DNA of 64,000 nucleotides from Halobaculum roseum (GTDB taxonomy: Archaea; Halobacteriota; Halobacteria; Halobacteriales; Haloferacaceae), in assembly GCF_019880245.1 (NCBI RefSeq), contig NZ_CP082286.1, forward strand, positions 1,816,521 to 1,880,520, given 5' to 3'. Position 1 is the stretch's first letter, and each line of letters begins with the position of its first letter. The notes under the pieces were generated by a model. That model had not been told where the DNA came from. It did no database searches and was given only the letters and a program-made list of their open reading frames with translations. Positions 2,128-46,822 of this stretch are shown one piece after another. The translations under genes were made by a program, and so were the position numbers.

Positions 2128-2163
2128 GTTTTCACGCCTGATACCCGCGGGGGAGCGTTTATC
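2128..2163 (+). promoter_or_regulatory. cheY promoter with shared motility-regulon element
   Basis: The 12-mer TCACGCCTGATA (2132-2143) is followed, 26 bp from its first base, by the TATA-like TTTATC (2158-2163). The cheY ATG is 32 bp after the first TATA base, so the transcript is leaderless or nearly so. The same 12-mer and the same spacing occur at seven other promoters in this window. Confidence 0.7.
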
Positions 2164-4391: not shown

Positions 4392-4427
4392 GTTATCGGG
4401 CACGATAATCCGCGGGGTGGCTTTAAG
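4392..4427 (+). promoter_or_regulatory. arlCE promoter with shared motility-regulon element
   Basis: A divergent copy of the 12-mer, TCGGGCACGATA (4396-4407), starts 26 bp before TATA-like TTTAAG (4422-4427). The ATG lies 31 bp after the first TATA base. The upstream flank GTTATCG and the downstream CGCGGGG are shared with the arlI promoter, so these two are the most similar pair of the set. Confidence 0.65.
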
Positions 4428-4452: not shown

Positions 4453-5928
4453 ATGGGTCTCCTCACCGCACTACCGGGAGCAGGGGTCGGCGGGTTCCCG
4501 GGGGCCGACGCGACGCTCCTCGTCTCGTTCGGACTCCTGGGCGCCAGCCTGCTCGATCGCTTCCGCGACGGCGACGACGGGCCCGGGGACGTCGACGACG
4601 GCGGCGACGATCTGCTCGGCGGCGACGACGGCGCCTTCGGCGGCGACGGCGGCGGCGACGACGACGACCTCGGCGACCTCGGCGGCATGGACGACTGGGA
4701 CGACGACGACCCCTTCGGGGGCGAGGACGGCGGCGGCGACGACGGCGTCGCCGAACTGGAGAAACGCGTCGACGACCTCGAAAACGAGGTCGCGAGCCTC
4801 TCCTCGACCGTCAACACGGTTCGCTCGGAGAACGAGGAGATCTCCGGGAAGGTCGAGGACATGGGGGAGGACGTCCGCAGCCTGCTCGACATCTACGAGA
4901 TGGTGACGCGCGGGATCAACCCCTTCGTCGACGACGTGCAGGGTGGGGGGGACCTCGGCGGCGAGGGGGACTTCGGCCTGTTCGACGACGCGGGCGGCGA
5001 CGGCGGCGACGACGACGAGGAGGACCTCGACGAGGACCTCGCCAGCGCCGACGCGGAGGGGTTCTTCGACGAGGACCTCGCCGGCGACGGGATGGACGAC
5101 CTCGACGAGATGGACGAGGGCGACGATCTCGACGGGACGGACGACGGGGACGACCTCGGCGACATGGAGGGGATGGACGAGGCGGACGGCTTCGACGACG
5201 ACCTCGACGGCTTCGGGGACGACGACGCGGATGACACCGATTCAGACACCATGGCGACCGACAACGGCGGCGGAAAGAGTTTCAGTGAACTGAAAGACGA
5301 GTACGAGTCGGGCGACGCCGACTGGGACGAGGGCGAGGCCCCGGACGACGGGGAGGGCGACGCGCTCGACGCGCTCGACGCCGAGCCGGAGTCCAACGGC
5401 CACGACGAGGCCGGCGACCTCGGAATGGGCGGCGAGGAGGAGCCGGAACCCGATCCGGATCCGGCCCCCGAGTCGACGGCCGGCCCGACGGACCCGAGCC
5501 GACGCGGCGAGGGCGTCGACGAGAACGGCGGCTTCGAGTTCGTCGAGGAGGACGATCTCTCCGACGAGCCGGACAAGCCGTACCTCACGAGCCTGCCGGG
5601 CGACTACGTGGGCGACCTGATGGTGATGGAGTGGCTGGAGTTCCTCGTCGAGGAGTCGACCACGACCGACGCGGTGCGCGCGGTCAACTACTACGAGCGC
5701 GTCGAGTGGATCGACGAGGAGGTCGCCGACCAGCTCAAGGGGTTCCTCTCGGGTTTCGGCGACATCGACCGCAACCTCATGGACCGTCCCGGGACCGACC
5801 ACCTCGATCTGGACCACCACACGCGCTCGCTCAAGTACATCATGCAGTTAACCGACGCCACGGCCGAGTCCGTCGTCATCGACCGGTGGCCGCAGCTTTC
5901 TGGGGGCATGCATGGGCCTCAGCGTTAG
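4453..5928 (+). CDS. arlCE: Archaellum cytoplasmic ring/adaptor protein ArlCE (fused ArlC and ArlE)
   Basis: 491 residues. The N-terminus has one hydrophobic stretch (LLVSFGLLGASLL), followed by a Gly/Asp-rich linker. A coiled coil (VAELEKRVDDLENEVASL.., about 97-130) and DIYEMVTRGINPFVDD form the ArlC part. A second, very acidic linker of about 220 residues follows. The C-terminal about 110 residues (KPYLTSLPGDYVGDLMVMEW to the end) are the ArlD/E domain. In haloarchaea ArlCDE connects the chemotaxis adaptors (CheF) to the switch. The reading frame extends upstream, but ATG 4453 is right for the promoter and begins MGLLTALPG. The end overlaps arlF by 17 bases. No separate arlD is seen in this window. 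Confidence 0.9.
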   Translation: MGLLTALPGAGVGGFPGADATLLVSFGLLGASLLDRFRDGDDGPGDVDDGGDDLLGGDDGAFGGDGGGDDDDLGDLGGMDDWDDDDPFGGEDGGGDDGVAELEKRVDDLENEVASLSSTVNTVRSENEEISGKVEDMGEDVRSLLDIYEMVTRGINPFVDDVQGGGDLGGEGDFGLFDDAGGDGGDDDEEDLDEDLASADAEGFFDEDLAGDGMDDLDEMDEGDDLDGTDDGDDLGDMEGMDEADGFDDDLDGFGDDDADDTDSDTMATDNGGGKSFSELKDEYESGDADWDEGEAPDDGEGDALDALDAEPESNGHDEAGDLGMGGEEEPEPDPDPAPESTAGPTDPSRRGEGVDENGGFEFVEEDDLSDEPDKPYLTSLPGDYVGDLMVMEWLEFLVEESTTTDAVRAVNYYERVEWIDEEVADQLKGFLSGFGDIDRNLMDRPGTDHLDLDHHTRSLKYIMQLTDATAESVVIDRWPQLSGGMHGPQR

Positions 5929-7760: not shown

Positions 7761-7796
7761 GTTATCGCCGCTGATAGCTCGCGGGGAGGGTTTAAG
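7761..7796 (+). promoter_or_regulatory. arlI promoter with shared motility-regulon element
   Basis: TCGCCGCTGATA (7765-7776) starts 26 bp before TATA-like TTTAAG (7791-7796). The first ATG downstream, 31 bp after the first TATA base, is not arlI but a 30-codon leader ORF that overlaps arlI. The block from GTTATCG to TTTAAG closely resembles the arlCE promoter. Confidence 0.72.
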
Positions 7797-7821: not shown

Positions 7822-7914
7822 ATGAGCATCACCCTCGCCGGGAGCCGGGGGCGCGGTGCCGTCACGGCCGATGACGGGTGCCGGTCGTCGTCGGCGCGGA
7901 GGTGCATTCGATGA
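7822..7914 (+). CDS. Small leader ORF overlapping arlI
   Basis: 30 codons (MSITLAGSRG.. to ..ARRCIR). Its ATG is where a leaderless start would fall, 31 bp after the first TATA base, exactly as at arlCE. Its TGA overlaps the arlI ATG as ATGA. The peptide resembles nothing I know. It could be a leader peptide whose translation delivers ribosomes to arlI (termination-reinitiation), or part of an untranslated leader that is open by chance. Codon content does not decide this. Confidence 0.4.
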   Translation: MSITLAGSRGRGAVTADDGCRSSSARRCIR

Positions 7915-9587: not shown

Positions 9588-11336
9588 ATGAGCACGAACA
9601 GCGCGTCCGCGTCCGACTTCTTCCCCGACTCCGCAGCGGAGCTCGCCGCCGATCTGGTGGCGTCGTACGACGCGCTGGACATGTCCAAACGGAAGTACGT
9701 CGGCTACATCCTGGCCCCTTCGGCGGCGTTCTTCCTGCTCACGATCGTCGGCGCGTTCCTGCTCCCGCTGCCGGTGACGGTCCGCCTGCCGATCCCCGCG
9801 CTCGGGATCTTGATACTCGTCGCGGCGGTGTTCTACCCGAAGCTGTACCTCAACGGCCGCCAGGTCGCCATCGAGAACCAGCTCCACCTGGTGATGACCC
9901 ACATGACCGTGCTGTCGACGACGAACATCGACCGCATGGAGGTGTTCCGGACGCTCGCGACCGAGGAGGAGTACGGCGCCGCCGCCGACGAGCTCGCGCG
10001 CGTCGTCCACCTCGTCGACACGTGGAACCAGTCGCTCGACGACGCGCTGCGCAGGCGGGCGAAGGAGGTCCCCTCGGACGTGTTCTCGGACTTCTTCGAC
10101 CGCCTCGGCTACACCATCGGCGCCGGGCAGACCCTCGACGACTTCCTGCTGTCCGAGCAGGACGCGGTCATCCAGAACTACATCACGGTGTACGAGGGGG
10201 CGCTGGCGAACCTGGAGGTCATGAAGGACCTCTACATGTCGATGATCCTCTCGATGACGTTCGCGCTGGTGTTCGCCATCGTCCTCCCGATCCTCACCGG
10301 CGACAACCCGACGCTCACCGTCTCGGCGGTCATCGTCCTGTTCATGCTGGTGCAGCTGGGCTTCTACGTCGTCATCCGGGCGATGGCCCCCCACGACCCC
10401 GTCTGGTTCCACTCCGAGGAGGGGGCGCCCTCGGACTTCCGGCTGTGGTCCAGCTTCGCGGTCGGCGTCTTCGGGACCGCCGCGCTCGTCGTCTTCGTCG
10501 GCGCCGGCCTGTTCAACGTCGGGCCGGGGCTGCGCGGGCTGCTCTTCTTCCTCGAGGACATCCCGCTCGCGCTGTACATCTGCGTCCCGATCACGCCGAT
10601 GGCGATCACCGGGGTGATGCTCCGGTTCGAGGAGCGCAACATCGAGGAACGGGACGAGGAGTTCCCGTCGTTCATCCGCGCGCTCGGCGCCGCCGAGTCG
10701 GCCAAACAGTCGACGACCGGCGACGTGCTCGCGACGCTCCACAAGAAGGACTTCGGCGCGCTCACGCCCGCGATCGTCCGCCTGTACCGCCGGCTCAACA
10801 TCCGGATCAGCTCCGAACAGGCGTGGTACACGTTCGCGACGGACACGCGCTCGTACCTCATCCAGAAGTTCTCGGACATGTACCTCGAGGGGCGCTCGAT
10901 GGGCGGCCGGCCGAAGCTGCTGGGGGAGCTCATCTCCCAGAACATGAACACCGTCATGCAGCTGCGCGAGCAGCGCCGGCAGGCGACGGTGACGATGATC
11001 GGGCTGCTGTACGGGATCACCTCCGCGTCGGCGTTCGCGTTCTTCATCGGCCTGCAGGTCGTGAACATCCTCGCGGACCTGTCCCAGCAGTTCAACATCA
11101 CCAACGCCGGCGGCGTCGGCAAGATCATCTACGCCGGCGTGTACGACATCGCGCTCATCGAGTTCCTGCTCCTGCTCGTCATCCTCTTCAACGCCGTCCT
11201 CTCGTCTGTGATGATCCGCACCATCGACGGCGGCAACAAGGCGAACGCCTACCTCCACTTCGTGCTCATGACGTGGCTCGGCTCCGGCGTCGCCATCTTC
11301 ACGAAGCACCTCGTCAGCGCGATCCTCACGATCTGA
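9588..11336 (+). CDS. arlJ: Archaellum platform membrane protein ArlJ
   Basis: 582 residues with several hydrophobic segments in clusters near residues 40-90, 215-260, 290-360 and 475-580, separated by two basic/charged cytoplasmic domains (T2SF/GspF-like) that contact ArlI. The N-terminal about 40 residues are soluble. It is the last gene of the arl operon. Downstream is a 520-base gene-poor stretch containing an orphan copy of the motility promoter. Confidence 0.94.
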   Translation: MSTNSASASDFFPDSAAELAADLVASYDALDMSKRKYVGYILAPSAAFFLLTIVGAFLLPLPVTVRLPIPALGILILVAAVFYPKLYLNGRQVAIENQLHLVMTHMTVLSTTNIDRMEVFRTLATEEEYGAAADELARVVHLVDTWNQSLDDALRRRAKEVPSDVFSDFFDRLGYTIGAGQTLDDFLLSEQDAVIQNYITVYEGALANLEVMKDLYMSMILSMTFALVFAIVLPILTGDNPTLTVSAVIVLFMLVQLGFYVVIRAMAPHDPVWFHSEEGAPSDFRLWSSFAVGVFGTAALVVFVGAGLFNVGPGLRGLLFFLEDIPLALYICVPITPMAITGVMLRFEERNIEERDEEFPSFIRALGAAESAKQSTTGDVLATLHKKDFGALTPAIVRLYRRLNIRISSEQAWYTFATDTRSYLIQKFSDMYLEGRSMGGRPKLLGELISQNMNTVMQLREQRRQATVTMIGLLYGITSASAFAFFIGLQVVNILADLSQQFNITNAGGVGKIIYAGVYDIALIEFLLLLVILFNAVLSSVMIRTIDGGNKANAYLHFVLMTWLGSGVAIFTKHLVSAILTI

Positions 11337-11437
11337 GTTCGAGCGCGCGGTGACGGCACCGTTCGCGCGGGTGCCGGTCGTGCGGGTGCCGAACGCGCGG
11401 ATACGGAAGCGACCGGGGGCCGTCCCCGATCCTCGTC

Positions 11438-11473
11438 GCTCTCACCGCTGATACGTCACGCCGAACCCTTATG
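11438..11473 (+). promoter_or_regulatory. Orphan copy of the motility-regulon promoter
   Basis: TCACCGCTGATA (11442-11453), the best match to the consensus, starts 26 bp before TATA-like CTTATG (11468-11473). Transcription should begin near 11495-11500. Unlike all other copies there is no start codon at +30; the nearest ATGs are 11514 (14 codons) and 11551 (51 codons, MGRDLAFARTPSRPPR..). The product is therefore a small RNA or an unusual short protein. Confidence 0.6.
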
Positions 11474-11550
11474 CTCGCCCGACGCGGAGTCTTCGGTAGC
11501 GGCGGTCGCAGGGATGCGGGAGCCGACCGCCGTCGGGTCGCGGCGAAGCC

Positions 11551-11706
11551 ATGGGTAGGGACCTGGCGTTCGCGCGAACCCCGAGTCGGCCGCCCCGGTC
11601 GGGGCGGCCGGTGCTGTTCTCGTGGTGGCTGTCCGTTCCGTTCACAGCGAACGCGCCGTCGGCGTCGCCGGCGTCAACGCCCGCGGTCGACGCCGGGAGG
11701 TCGTGA
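11551..11706 (+). CDS. Possible 51-residue protein downstream of the orphan promoter
   Basis: ATG 11551 opens a 51-codon frame, MGRDLAFARTPSRPPRSG.., with a short aromatic/hydrophobic patch (VLFSWWLSVPF) and a Ser/Ala/Pro-rich tail. It would be translated from a leader of about 55 bases if the orphan promoter is used. Composition is not acidic, unlike typical haloarchaeal proteins, and a GC-rich perfect hairpin lies inside the frame, so a non-coding RNA is at least as likely. Confidence 0.2.
   Translation: MGRDLAFARTPSRPPRSGRPVLFSWWLSVPFTANAPSASPASTPAVDAGRS
11587..11610 (+). other. Perfect 10-bp GC hairpin in the arlJ-cstA intergenic region
   Basis: CGGCCGCCCC (11587-11596), loop GGTC, then GGGGCGGCCG (11601-11610): a perfect stem with no downstream T run. 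It lies about 90 bases after the predicted start of the orphan transcript. It could be a structural element of a small RNA, or a 3' stem for arlJ. The remainder of 11337-11856 shows no convincing gene. Confidence 0.5.
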
Positions 11707-11856
11707 GTGACGTGCCGCCGGCGTATCGTACCCGACGTGGCTACGACGCGGCGGCGCCGCTCGCGATCGAGCGCGCCGAAAAAACGGAACCGAACGCAGC
11801 GGCGGTTGTTCGCTCAGTCGTCGGCCTGACCGACATCGGAACGAGTTCCGACGAGC

Positions 11857-13704
11857 TCAGGAATCCTGCGATTCCTGACCGCCGTCGGTGGCGACCGCGC
11901 CGCCCGTGCCCCTGCGGGCCTCCTGGATGTTGTCGTACCCCATCTTGACCAGCGACAGCGCCAGGTAGATCAGGGTGAACGCGATGGCGATCTGGACGAC
12001 CGCCGACAGCATCGCGAAGGCTCCCGCCTCGGCCATCCACGCGTCGTTGAGGAACTTCGCGTAGATGTTGTCGTGGAGCGCGAGCCACAGCAGACCCAGC
12101 ACGGTGATCGTCACCATGACCACCATCGGGCCGCCCGTGGAGATGAGCTGCTTGGAGTCGCTCCAGTTGGCGAGCCATACCGTCGCGGTGAGCAGCGCCA
12201 GCGCCGCGAGCAGCTGGTTCGCGCCGCCGAACAGCTGCCACAGCGTCAGCCACGAGCCGCTCGTGATCATGACGTACGCGGGCACCGCCTGCACGACCGC
12301 GTTTCCGTAGCGGTCGGCCGCGAACGACTCGACCGGCGATTCGGGCGTGCCGACGATCTCCTCCATCATGTACCGACCCAGGCGGACGGCGGTGTCGGTC
12401 GACGTGAGCAGGAAGCTCACGAGCACCAGCGCCATGAACGGGCCGCCGAAGGAGGTCGGGATGCCGAAGCTCGTCAGGATGATCCCGCCGCCGGTCGCGA
12501 ACGTCGGCAGCGCGAGCCCGATGCCGCCGCCGACCTCGGGCGCGACGAGCGCGACCGTGATCAGCGCGACGGTGGCGAGCAGTCCCTCGCCGAGCATCCC
12601 GCCGTAGCCGATCGCGCGCGCGTCGGTCTCCTTGTTCAGCTGCTTCGAGGTCGTCCCCGACGACACCAGCGAGTGGAACCCGGAGATGGTCCCGCACGCG
12701 ATGGTGATGAACAGCAGCGGGAACAGCGGCGCGCCGGAGCGGCCGATGAACCCGTAGAACGGTTCGAGTTGCGTGGTGAGCGGCTGGCTCGGCGTGATCG
12801 CGCCGATGCCCATCGCGCCGCCCAGCGTGCCGACGATGATCGCCAGCAGCGCCCCGCCGACCCCCGAGTACAGGAGGAACGACGAGAGGTAGTCACGCGG
12901 CTGCAGCAGCACCCATACCGGAAGCGCGCTCGCGAGCGCCCCGTACACGAGGATGATCGGGATCCACGCGGCGGTGTTGGCGCCGAGCGCGCCCGCGCCG
13001 GGGATCCACGACCCGCCGCTGCCCAGCAGGACGATCGTCTGGGCGGGCGCACGTGCGGCCGGCTCGAACAGCGCGACCGGGACCAGCGTCCCGACGTACA
13101 CGCCCGCGAACATCGCGGCGACGAACGCGATCGTTCCCGGGATGAACGAGAGGTTCAGCTGGTACAGGTACACGCCGAACAGCACCGCCAACCCGATGTA
13201 GATCAGGCTCGCGGTCGCCGCCTCGGGGTACGCGTTGAACACGATCGCGACCACGAGCGCGAACACCGCGACGACGAGCACGATCGTGAGGAACGCGAAC
13301 CACAGCAGCATGTTCTTGCCGCGCTCGCCCACGTACTCGCCGATGATGTACCCGATCGACTTCCCCTCGTGTCGGAGGCTCGCCGACAGCGAGACGAAGT
13401 CGTGGACCGACCCCATCAGCGGGTTGCCGATGGCGATCCACAGGATCGCGGGCACCCAGCCCCACACGACACCCGCGGTGATGGGGCCCACGATGGGCGC
13501 GCCGCCAGCGATACTCGAATAGTGATGCCCCAAGAGCACCGGCTTCTTCGCCGGAACGTACTCCTGTCCGTCCTCGTATTTGTGTGCCGGCGTCTCCCGG
13601 TCCTCGTCCAGTTCGACGAACTGGGCGAGATACCGCGAGTACCCGAGATACCCCGCACTGAACAGTGCGAGTACCCCGATCACCAGCCACATTGCTGCCA
13701 CCAT
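11857..13704 (-). CDS. cstA: Carbon starvation protein A-type transporter (CstA)
   Basis: 615 residues, polytopic membrane protein of the CstA family, which takes up peptides or pyruvate in bacteria. Family landmarks are present: KKPVLLGHHYSSIAGGAPIV near residue 53, GNPLMGSVHDFVSLSASLRH and FHSLVSSGTTSKQLNKETDA. Roughly 16 hydrophobic segments can be counted. The C-terminal tail (MGYDNIQEARRGTGGAVATD..) is soluble. The start MVAAMWLV is used; an internal Met five codons on is possible. The AT-rich upstream block (AATATAAAAACATTAA at 13738-13752, promoter on the minus strand) differs from the GC-rich surroundings. It converges with the arlJ side. Substrate in this organism is unknown. Confidence 0.9.
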   Translation of the reverse strand: MVAAMWLVIGVLALFSAGYLGYSRYLAQFVELDEDRETPAHKYEDGQEYVPAKKPVLLGHHYSSIAGGAPIVGPITAGVVWGWVPAILWIAIGNPLMGSVHDFVSLSASLRHEGKSIGYIIGEYVGERGKNMLLWFAFLTIVLVVAVFALVVAIVFNAYPEAATASLIYIGLAVLFGVYLYQLNLSFIPGTIAFVAAMFAGVYVGTLVPVALFEPAARAPAQTIVLLGSGGSWIPGAGALGANTAAWIPIILVYGALASALPVWVLLQPRDYLSSFLLYSGVGGALLAIIVGTLGGAMGIGAITPSQPLTTQLEPFYGFIGRSGAPLFPLLFITIACGTISGFHSLVSSGTTSKQLNKETDARAIGYGGMLGEGLLATVALITVALVAPEVGGGIGLALPTFATGGGIILTSFGIPTSFGGPFMALVLVSFLLTSTDTAVRLGRYMMEEIVGTPESPVESFAADRYGNAVVQAVPAYVMITSGSWLTLWQLFGGANQLLAALALLTATVWLANWSDSKQLISTGGPMVVMVTITVLGLLWLALHDNIYAKFLNDAWMAEAGAFAMLSAVVQIAIAFTLIYLALSLVKMGYDNIQEARRGTGGAVATDGGQESQDS

Positions 13705-22310: not shown

Positions 22311-24125
22311 TCAGTTCCCGAACACGAAGCCGCCGTAGTCGCCGTCGGTGTCGGTATCGCCGTCGGACGCATCGCCGTCGGATGCCTCCTCCTCGGCCGC
22401 CTCGATGGTGACGCCGTCGTCGCCCTCGTCGTCGCGACCGGCGTCCGCGGGCGCGTCGATCGTGATGCCGCCGTCGGTTCGGAACTCCGACTCCCCGCCC
22501 GCGAGTCGGCTCGTCCGTCCGCCGTCGGCGCGGAACTCGGCGCTTTTTGCGTCCTTCCCGCGGAGTTCCATCACGCGCTGGGACAGTTCGGCGATGGCGT
22601 CGCTCTGGTCGTCGGTCGCGGCGACGATCCGGTCGGCGGCGTGTTCGGTCTCGCTCGAGCGCTCCCGGACCTCCTCGATGGTCGCGGTGAGCTCCTCGAC
22701 GGTGGCCGCCTGGTCGTCGGTCGCGCGCGACACCTCGGCGATGCCGTCGGCTGCCTGGTCGATGGACGCCGCGATGTCCTCGAACGCCACCAACACGTCG
22801 TCGATCTGATCGGCCGCGTGGTCGATCTGCTGGTGGCTCTGTTCGGCGGCGACGACCGTCGAGTCGGTGCGGTTCTGTAGCTGCTCGATGTTGCCCGTGA
22901 TCTGCTCGGTGTGCTGGCGGGTCTCGTCGGCGAGCGTCTTCACCTCCTCGGCGACGACGGCGAAGCCGTCGCCGTCCTTGCCCGCGCGGGCGGCCTCGAT
23001 GTTGGCGTTGAGTGCCAACAGGTTCGTCTGCTCGGCCACGTCGGAGATGACCTCGACGACGGACTCGATGTCGTCCATTCGGTCGCCGAGATCGGTGACG
23101 GAGTCGACGAGCTCCTCGCCGATCTCGGTCACCTCCTCGGTCGCCTCGCGTGCGTCCTCGCTGGCGTCGAGCCCGTCGGTCGCGGCCTCGCGCGCCTGCT
23201 CGGCGGCGGTGTCGACCTCCTCGGCGGTCGCGGCGACCTCCTCCATCGACGCGGAGAACGTCTGCATCTCCGAGACGCCCTCCGAGAGTAGCTCGTTCTG
23301 CTCGCCGACGTTCTCGGCGATCTCCTCTGCGGCGTCGACCGCCTCCTCCACGGAGTCCTCCAGGCGCGCGGTACCCTCGTCGACGCCGGCGGCGGTCTCC
23401 TCGAACGCCTCGGCCATCTCGTTGAGGTCGCAGATGACGTCGAGCAGCCGGTCGTCGAGGCAGTCGTTCTCGTCCTCGAAGGACGCCCGTGCGTCGAGGT
23501 TCCCCTCCGTCAGCAACCCCATCGTCGCGCCGAGCTCGTCGACGAGGTCCTCGACCGCCTTCTGGCGCTGGACCTGGTCCGTCCGATCGCGGACCGTCTC
23601 GACGACGGCGACCAGCTCGTCGTCCTCGTACAGCGGCATCGCCGTGAAGTAGATGTCGCGGTCGACGCCGTGCTGGTCGGTCATCACGCTGGTGTCGGAG
23701 TACAGCCACATCGACTCGTCCTCCAGGTCGACGCCGAACTCCTCGTGGACCGACTTCGGGTGTTCGAGCACCTTGTCGGCGAGCGTCTGTGCCCGACGGC
23801 CGTCGGGGTAGAACATCTCGCTGGCGTGTTCGTGGCCGATCGCCTCCTCGGCGCTCGCGCCGGTCAGCTCCTCGATCGCCGAGTTCCACGCGACGATCTC
23901 GCCGTCCGCATCGACCATGAAGACGGGCGACCCCATCCCGTCGAGCAGCAGGTCGTCGTCGACGTTCAGTTCGTCGTCCTCGTCCTCGTCCTCGTCGGCG
24001 GCGGCGTCCGACTCGGGCAGTCCGGCCGAGTCGGCGCCCGACTGGACGGTGACCCCGCCGTCCGCCAGCGGCTCGTTCGGATCCGTCCCCGTGACCCACG
24101 CACGGAGGCGAGCGAGTAATGGCAT
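22311..24125 (-). CDS. Soluble chemotaxis transducer (MCP/Htr type) with PAS domain
   Basis: 604 residues with no transmembrane segment, so it is a cytoplasmic receptor. The N-terminus is acidic and Gly-rich; a PAS domain (about 62-185) begins [22 protein letters not shown]. Long heptad helices follow, and the hairpin tip [19 protein letters not shown] (about residue 365) is the CheA/CheW contact site. Gln/Glu pairs in the flanking helices are candidate sites for CheR, CheB and CheD. The C-terminal 80 residues are acidic and end DYGGFVFGN. It is encoded far from the che genes but has the same promoter element, starting 30 bp after the TATA box. Confidence 0.93.
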
Positions 24126-24149
24126 ACATCTACGGCTCTGTGAATCCCG

Positions 24150-24185
24150 TTTAACGGTTGCCGTCCGGGAATCACGTGTGATACT
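24150..24185 (-). promoter_or_regulatory. Soluble-transducer promoter with shared motility-regulon element
   Basis: On the minus strand TCACACGTGATT (24181-24170) starts 26 bp before TATA-like GTTAAA (24155-24150); the ATG of the transducer is 30 bp after the first TATA base. It is the only minus-strand copy and the one furthest from an arl or che gene, which makes chance conservation of spacing less likely. Confidence 0.62.
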
Positions 24186-46258: not shown

Positions 46259-46294
46259 AATTTCACGGCTGATAGCTCGTGCGCTACCGTTAAG
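46259..46294 (+). promoter_or_regulatory. cheW promoter with shared motility-regulon element
   Basis: TCACGGCTGATA (46263-46274) starts 26 bp before TATA-like GTTAAG (46289-46294), and the ATG is 30 bp after the first TATA base. It lies between cheB and cheW; whether it also affects the divergent cheB operon is unclear, because no second copy faces cheB. Confidence 0.7.
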
Positions 46295-46786: not shown

Positions 46787-46822
46787 AGTATCACTGCTGA
46801 GTTTCGGGGAGCAGTCCTTATC
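46787..46822 (+). promoter_or_regulatory. KaiC-like gene promoter with shared motility-regulon element
   Basis: TCACTGCTGAGT (46791-46802) starts 26 bp before TATA-like CTTATC (46817-46822). The ATG is 30 bp after the first TATA base. It begins only 16 bases after the cheW stop, so the gene is independent of cheW yet wired to the same signal. Confidence 0.6.

Follow-up and report, generated by a model that had tools for sequence, protein, structure and literature searches.

In Haloferax volcanii the archaellum and chemotaxis genes are regulated by CsmR, a 13-kDa winged-helix protein, whose ChIP-seq motif TATCA(N4)TGATA adjoins the TATA box (2026 study, PMC13286277). Two regulatory RNAs of the same species have also been connected with swimming: deletion of sRNA63 raised archaellin mRNA 16-fold and increased swarming (PMC3956466), and hvo_1211s, an RNA encoded in the archaellum neighbourhood, affects motility (PMC13286277). 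Most haloarchaeal sRNAs that have been studied (22 of 27) are confined to one species (PMC3956466), and a literature search found no haloarchaeal sRNA tied by its promoter to a motility regulon.

We analyzed a 64,000-nucleotide stretch of DNA (the window, a term used here for that whole stretch) from the salt-loving archaeon Halobaculum, and noted an element downstream of the genes for the archaellum, the swimming motor. Our preferred reading, to which we assign a probability of about 0.68, is that this element is a gene for a small non-coding RNA with a CsmR-type operator, which most likely functions as a trans-acting regulator of motility mRNAs. By its description, sRNA63 is comparable, being a haloarchaeal intergenic sRNA that influences archaellin and che transcripts, but it has been reported from no other haloarchaeal genome (PMC3956466), whereas the Halobaculum RNA is genus-wide (9 of 11 genomes). 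Likewise, hvo_1211s lies near the arl genes, but it is ~420 nt in length, overlaps cirA in the antisense orientation and is linked to RosR (PMC13286277); in contrast, the Halobaculum RNA is predicted to be ~90-120 nt, adjoins arlJ and has a conserved part that is not antisense to a gene. It lies between arlJ and the convergent cstA, and the features of the locus, in window coordinates, are:

9588 to 11336, plus strand: arlJ, the upstream neighbour of the RNA in all nine species that carry it
11440 to 11453, plus strand: CsmR-type operator TCTCA(CCGC)TGATA, 9/10 against TATCA-N4-TGATA, with predicted binding
11462 to 11472, plus strand: BRE/TATA-like promoter core, 73.7% mean pairwise identity
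11498 to 11584, plus strand: conserved RNA whose 5' end is probably at 11496-11498, single copy in 9 of 11 Halobaculum genomes
11499 to 11533, plus strand: hairpin H1, from alignment folding, with an invariant GGGAG on the loop side
11534 to 11584, plus strand: hairpin H2, from RNAalifold, with the apical heptaloop GUAGGGA (11555-11561)
11588 to 11609, plus strand: GC hairpin, probably the 3' end of the RNA or a structure resembling a terminator
11857 to 13704, minus strand: cstA, convergent and downstream of the RNA, assigned by Pfam CstA and synteny

A CsmR-type promoter without a leaderless gene

The sequence TCACCGCTGATA is present at 11442-11453, and only one further exact copy of it occurs in the 3.72-Mb genome. 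The fuller site TCTCACCGCTGATA (11440-11453) agrees at 9/10 positions with TATCA(N4)TGATA, a consensus derived from another genus (that of Haloferax volcanii), and the number of 9/10 sites expected in 64 kb on both strands is 0.4. A TATA-like box, CCCTTATG (~11465-11472), lies 13-15 bases past the site, the same spacing as in the che/arl promoters. The arrangement typical of the CsmR regulon, that is, an operator adjoining a TATA box, is thus seen both in the window (9/10) and across the nine species (8-9/10). Mean pairwise identity is 73.7% in the BRE/TATA-like core versus 36.5% in the spacer behind it, between the TATA-like box and the start. The regulon resembles that of H. volcanii in operator sequence, in the position of the operator before the TATA box and in its arl/che membership. 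It differs in that, in this different genus and with binding that is predicted, the promoter at 11440 leads to an RNA and not to a protein gene. A csmR-like gene, named by its size, domain and place, encodes a 113-residue winged-helix protein (helix-turn-helix by Pfam), and in each of the nine RNA-bearing genomes it precedes the archaellins; a cirA-like gene is likewise just upstream of the archaellins in 9/9, so that the neighbourhood is as in H. volcanii. Judging from the DNA sequence, the promoter of the RNA is quite probably under CsmR-type control.

Seven further CsmR-type sites precede che, arl, MCP, KaiC and pil ORFs, and in each of the seven an ATG stands 44-46 bases past the site:

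2130 to 2143, plus strand: before a cheY-like ORF, 9/10, ATG at +46
4394 to 4407, plus strand: within the arl cluster, ahead of the ATG at 4453, 8/10, ATG at +45
7763 to 7776, plus strand: before the arlI leader ORF, 9/10, ATG at +45
24170 to 24183, minus strand: before an MCP transducer gene (Pfam MCPsignal), 9/10, ATG at +44
46261 to 46274, plus strand: before cheW (Pfam CheW), 9/10, ATG at +44
46789 to 46802, plus strand: before a KaiC-like ATPase gene, 8/10, ATG at +44
G000 C1:164990 (L070): before a PilB3-like gene of the pil region, leaderless ATG at +44

The 9/10 sites with a TATA-like box behind them are those of the cheY-like ORF, the arlI leader ORF, cheW and the MCP gene, and the last of the seven suggests that type IV pili may belong to the CsmR regulon of Halobaculum. 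Just outside the window, the archaellin promoter (G000 C1 ~1816287) also has a CsmR-type site and lacks an ATG at +44-46. Instead, the archaellin mRNA begins with an untranslated leader of ~40 nt (L145, G000 C1 ~1816287-1816387, shortly before the window begins), which ends in the conserved GGGACCGAGAGAACC before the ATG and in most species can form a hairpin between C-rich and G-rich segments. It is the sole arl-cluster mRNA of the CsmR-type promoter class that has a 5' UTR.

The promoter at 11440 belongs to neither of these coding arrangements: no long ORF starts within 160 bases past its site, and a leaderless protein gene of the regulon was rejected, there being no ATG 44-46 bases past the site that opens a conserved ORF. 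A sequence-only reading of this DNA had described an orphan promoter of the regulon type without a leaderless gene, a description that our analysis bears out in both the element and the TATA-like box. Its further statement that this is the best-matching copy needs to be relaxed, as the sites of cheY, arlI and cheW reach 9/10 too. That a start codon follows every other copy is correct for the gene-preceding copies in the window, but not for the archaellin promoter outside it.

Two observations on the other promoters may be recorded here. The MCP transducer gene (22311-24183, minus strand), which has its own CsmR-type promoter, lies ~10 kb from the arl cluster. The arlI promoter leads to a leaderless ORF of 28-32 codons (7822-7914), which is read in a different frame from arlI. 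In eight of nine species the stop codon of this ORF shares bases with the start codon of arlI (ATGA), and in G001 the ORF stops 4 bases short of that start; this conserved leader ORF is probably translationally coupled to arlI.

Conservation and fold of the probable RNA

When the interval was compared with its relatives, the conserved block was found to begin at 11498, which is +44 after the site, exactly where an ATG would otherwise stand. In all nine species the CsmR-type site precedes the RNA by 43-45 bases, matching the site-to-ATG distance of the coding promoters. The RNA is found once in each of these genomes, in the constant order arlJ, RNA and convergent cstA. In the nine-species alignment mean pairwise identity is 78% in the site, 78% in H1, 91% in the 5' arm and loop of H2 and 59% in its 3' arm; it is 73-93% over most of H1 and H2 as against 24-45% in the flanks. 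Averaged by region, the flanks and the GC hairpin reach 32-39%. This pattern is that expected for a promoter followed by a transcribed RNA which starts at the +1 of the regulon. The interval has the features of a haloarchaeal intergenic sRNA gene, being free-standing and intergenic, with its own promoter and without a conserved ORF, and we consider it very probable that 11498-11584 is the gene for a conserved structured RNA.

Beyond the genus, a model of the RNA retrieved nothing from the family (159 other genomes) or from the order (several hundred), under strict filters which weak matches could escape, and with the filters off no RNA was found around arlJ in 20 loci of other genera. In G028, which stands for a related genus, arlJ and cstA follow each other in the same order, and the RNA was not found there. 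A scan of the genome collection with an 18-mer of the loop gave matches in H. saliterrae and H. litoreum, besides three unrelated single matches that we took as chance; the exact 18-mer was absent from the viral contigs, and the plasmid collection had no match to the RNA. The RNA thus appears to be genus-specific. An Rfam scan of 11300-11900 with E up to 10 yielded nothing near the cut-off of any family. A guide RNA of the C/D or H/ACA type was rejected, since inspection of 11498-11584 revealed no RUGAUGA/CUGA boxes or 3' ACA hairpin, and no guide-RNA family matched.

Folding of nine sequences with RNAalifold yielded two hairpins, H1 and H2. In H1, both partners are altered at alignment pairs 9/31 and 11/29; such two-sided changes are few, namely two pairs in four cells. 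In a slide control 92.6% of cells were paired in the structure versus at most 50% when it was shifted, and 33 of 500 column shuffles reached the observed score, so that the support from covariation is weak and suggestive only. The pair counts understate H2, because the 3' arm of G001 is wrongly placed in the MAFFT alignment. Stronger evidence is given by H2 itself: its 5' strand is near-constant and its 3' arm only 59% identical, and pairing is nonetheless kept, as is illustrated by UUGGAUC/GAUCCGA in G001 versus UCGGGUC/GACCCGA in G005. When only the 3' flank was shuffled, H2 lost stability in the majority of species (z between about -1.5 and -3.1), with the exception of G002. The predicted apex of H2 is CCA-U-GG[GUAGGGA]CC-UGG, the loop of which is identical in eight species; G002 has three changes in this otherwise invariant apex, and its fold is less clear.

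Behind the conserved block is a perfect 10-bp inverted repeat (11588-11597/11600-11609), in the place, about 90 bases from the predicted start, where the sequence-only reading had put it. The sequence of this GC hairpin is kept only in the sister G009, and identity over 11591-11615 is 32.5%. Equally strong hairpins of different sequence occupy the same place in G003 and G005, giving strong hairpins in four species of two mutually unrelated sequence types, and a T-run is found instead in G001, G004, G007 and G008. The GC hairpin, to which the sequence-only reading had drawn attention, is outside the conserved block; it is best read as the putative 3' end of the RNA. Accordingly, conservation over the earlier proposed interval 11498-11620 holds for 11498-11584 and fails for 11588-11609. 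That reading had proposed to look for compensatory changes in the stem of the GC hairpin; changes that keep the pairing are seen in H2 (G001 versus G005), and two-sided changes in two pairs of H1. Conservation in relatives with arlJ extends to nine of the ten Halobaculum species in which this gene is intact, the exception being G006. The suggestion of a small RNA is well supported by the presence of 11498-11584 in these species, by the regulon-type start and by the retention of pairing in H2.

Proposed function and alternative explanations

Transcription would start at ~11496-11498 from the RNA's own promoter, and the gene would span 11498-11584, or up to ~11615 if the 3' end is included. From the operator and spacing that it has in common with their genes, the RNA would be expected to be made together with the archaellins and the Arl and Che proteins. 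H1 and H2 would each expose a G-rich loop (GGGAG and GUAGGGA), and these loops could act in trans, by short base pairing or via an RNA-binding protein, with the outcome that expression of motility mRNAs is adjusted after transcription. Judged by the company that the RNA keeps, a regulatory role in motility is likely. No 10-nt complement of the H2 loop is conserved across the genus, and nothing conserved was found in complementarity to the RNA inside the arl locus. As a pairing partner the archaellin leader is not outstanding, placing no higher than the top 11-28% of windows. The complement of the loop is matched perfectly over 12 nt at one place in the genome; since the CBS-domain gene there is encoded by the other strand, this match makes no obvious target and was rejected. 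This outcome of the target search leaves room for a protein-binding or decoy role.

Bacterial decoy RNAs of the CsrB/RsmZ type carry GGA/GGGA in hairpin loops and are linked to motility. The Halobaculum RNA shares GGGA loops and a motility link with them, but has only two or three of the motifs, and we regard this as a mere resemblance; haloarchaea are not known to have a CsrA. As a decoy, the RNA would use its GGGA loops to titrate an RNA-binding protein from motility mRNAs, for example from the archaellin leader with GGGACCGAGAGAACC. The loop is indeed more conserved than pairing needs, yet lacks a conserved complementary target, and GGGACC is found in the apex of H2 (eight of nine species) as well as in all nine archaellin leaders. 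However, the GGGACC of the archaellin leader lies partly in a predicted stem and not in a loop, two conserved blocks of such size would by a rough estimate share a 6-mer by chance about once in eight cases, and we know of no such RNA-binding protein in haloarchaea, which makes a decoy doubtful. Less likely still is a cis element that separates the arl operon from the convergent cstA as a terminator or boundary, in which the CsmR site would serve only as roadblock or decoy DNA. The position between convergent genes, with GC hairpins or T-runs behind, would suit such an element, but it is the terminator-like part that is least conserved, while the promoter and the RNA, including unpaired loop bases, are conserved. 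Moreover, the TATA box and the exact start spacing are kept, and a terminator has no need of a promoter of its own.

The coding alternatives are a protein of 51 residues from 11551, already suggested by the sequence-only reading, or one of 14 residues from 11513. The former has an ATG in eight of nine species and a GTG in the remaining one, but only MGRDL is common; the frame dissolves after seven codons, its lengths range from 42 to over 100, and the sequences diverge. The 14-residue frame has its ATG in three of nine species only. Neither start is at the leaderless position. We consider a small protein very improbable and rejected both frames. A decayed or chance promoter without function would fit the restriction to one genus and the absence from G006, but is scarcely credible, as selection is evident on both promoter and RNA in nine species that have only 24-45% identity left in their flanks.

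The trans-acting small RNA thus being our preferred reading, its structure, genus-wide occurrence and regulon operator-to-start distance would add to motility control a post-transcriptional arm that is concrete and can be tested, and its promoter extends the 2026 CsmR motif to Halobaculum. A more specific version, in which this genus-specific RNA is hard-wired into the archaellum regulon and serves either as a decoy that binds a protein or as a dedicated regulator in a feedback loop, is put forward tentatively. If it were true, the regulator that turns on the swimming machinery would also give rise to an RNA that tunes the expression of archaellins or of chemotaxis genes. This would amount to a post-transcriptional checkpoint for archaellum assembly, of which we found no description for archaea.

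Genomes without the RNA

The two Halobaculum genomes without the RNA provide natural comparison species. In G010 the arl cluster is deleted and the RNA is absent; the place of the RNA lies past the end of the deletion. At this locus (L069, C26) a fusion joins the beginning of an archaellin to the last part of arlJ, and csmR and cirA are intact. G006 lacks the RNA and has an intact arlJ (97% identical), arlHIJ, archaellin and csmR, which indicates that the RNA is not strictly required for the arl cluster. The cstA of G006 is of a divergent type common to G001 and G010, and its arlJ groups with that of G005 (moderate support). Given this conflict, recombination near the end of arlJ may have removed the RNA from G006, or never brought it.

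The cstA genes of G001 (L045), G006 (L068) and G010 (L069) are 68-71% identical to that of the window, versus 87-99% among the rest. No matching split is seen in arlJ, and recombination at the arlJ-cstA border is probable.
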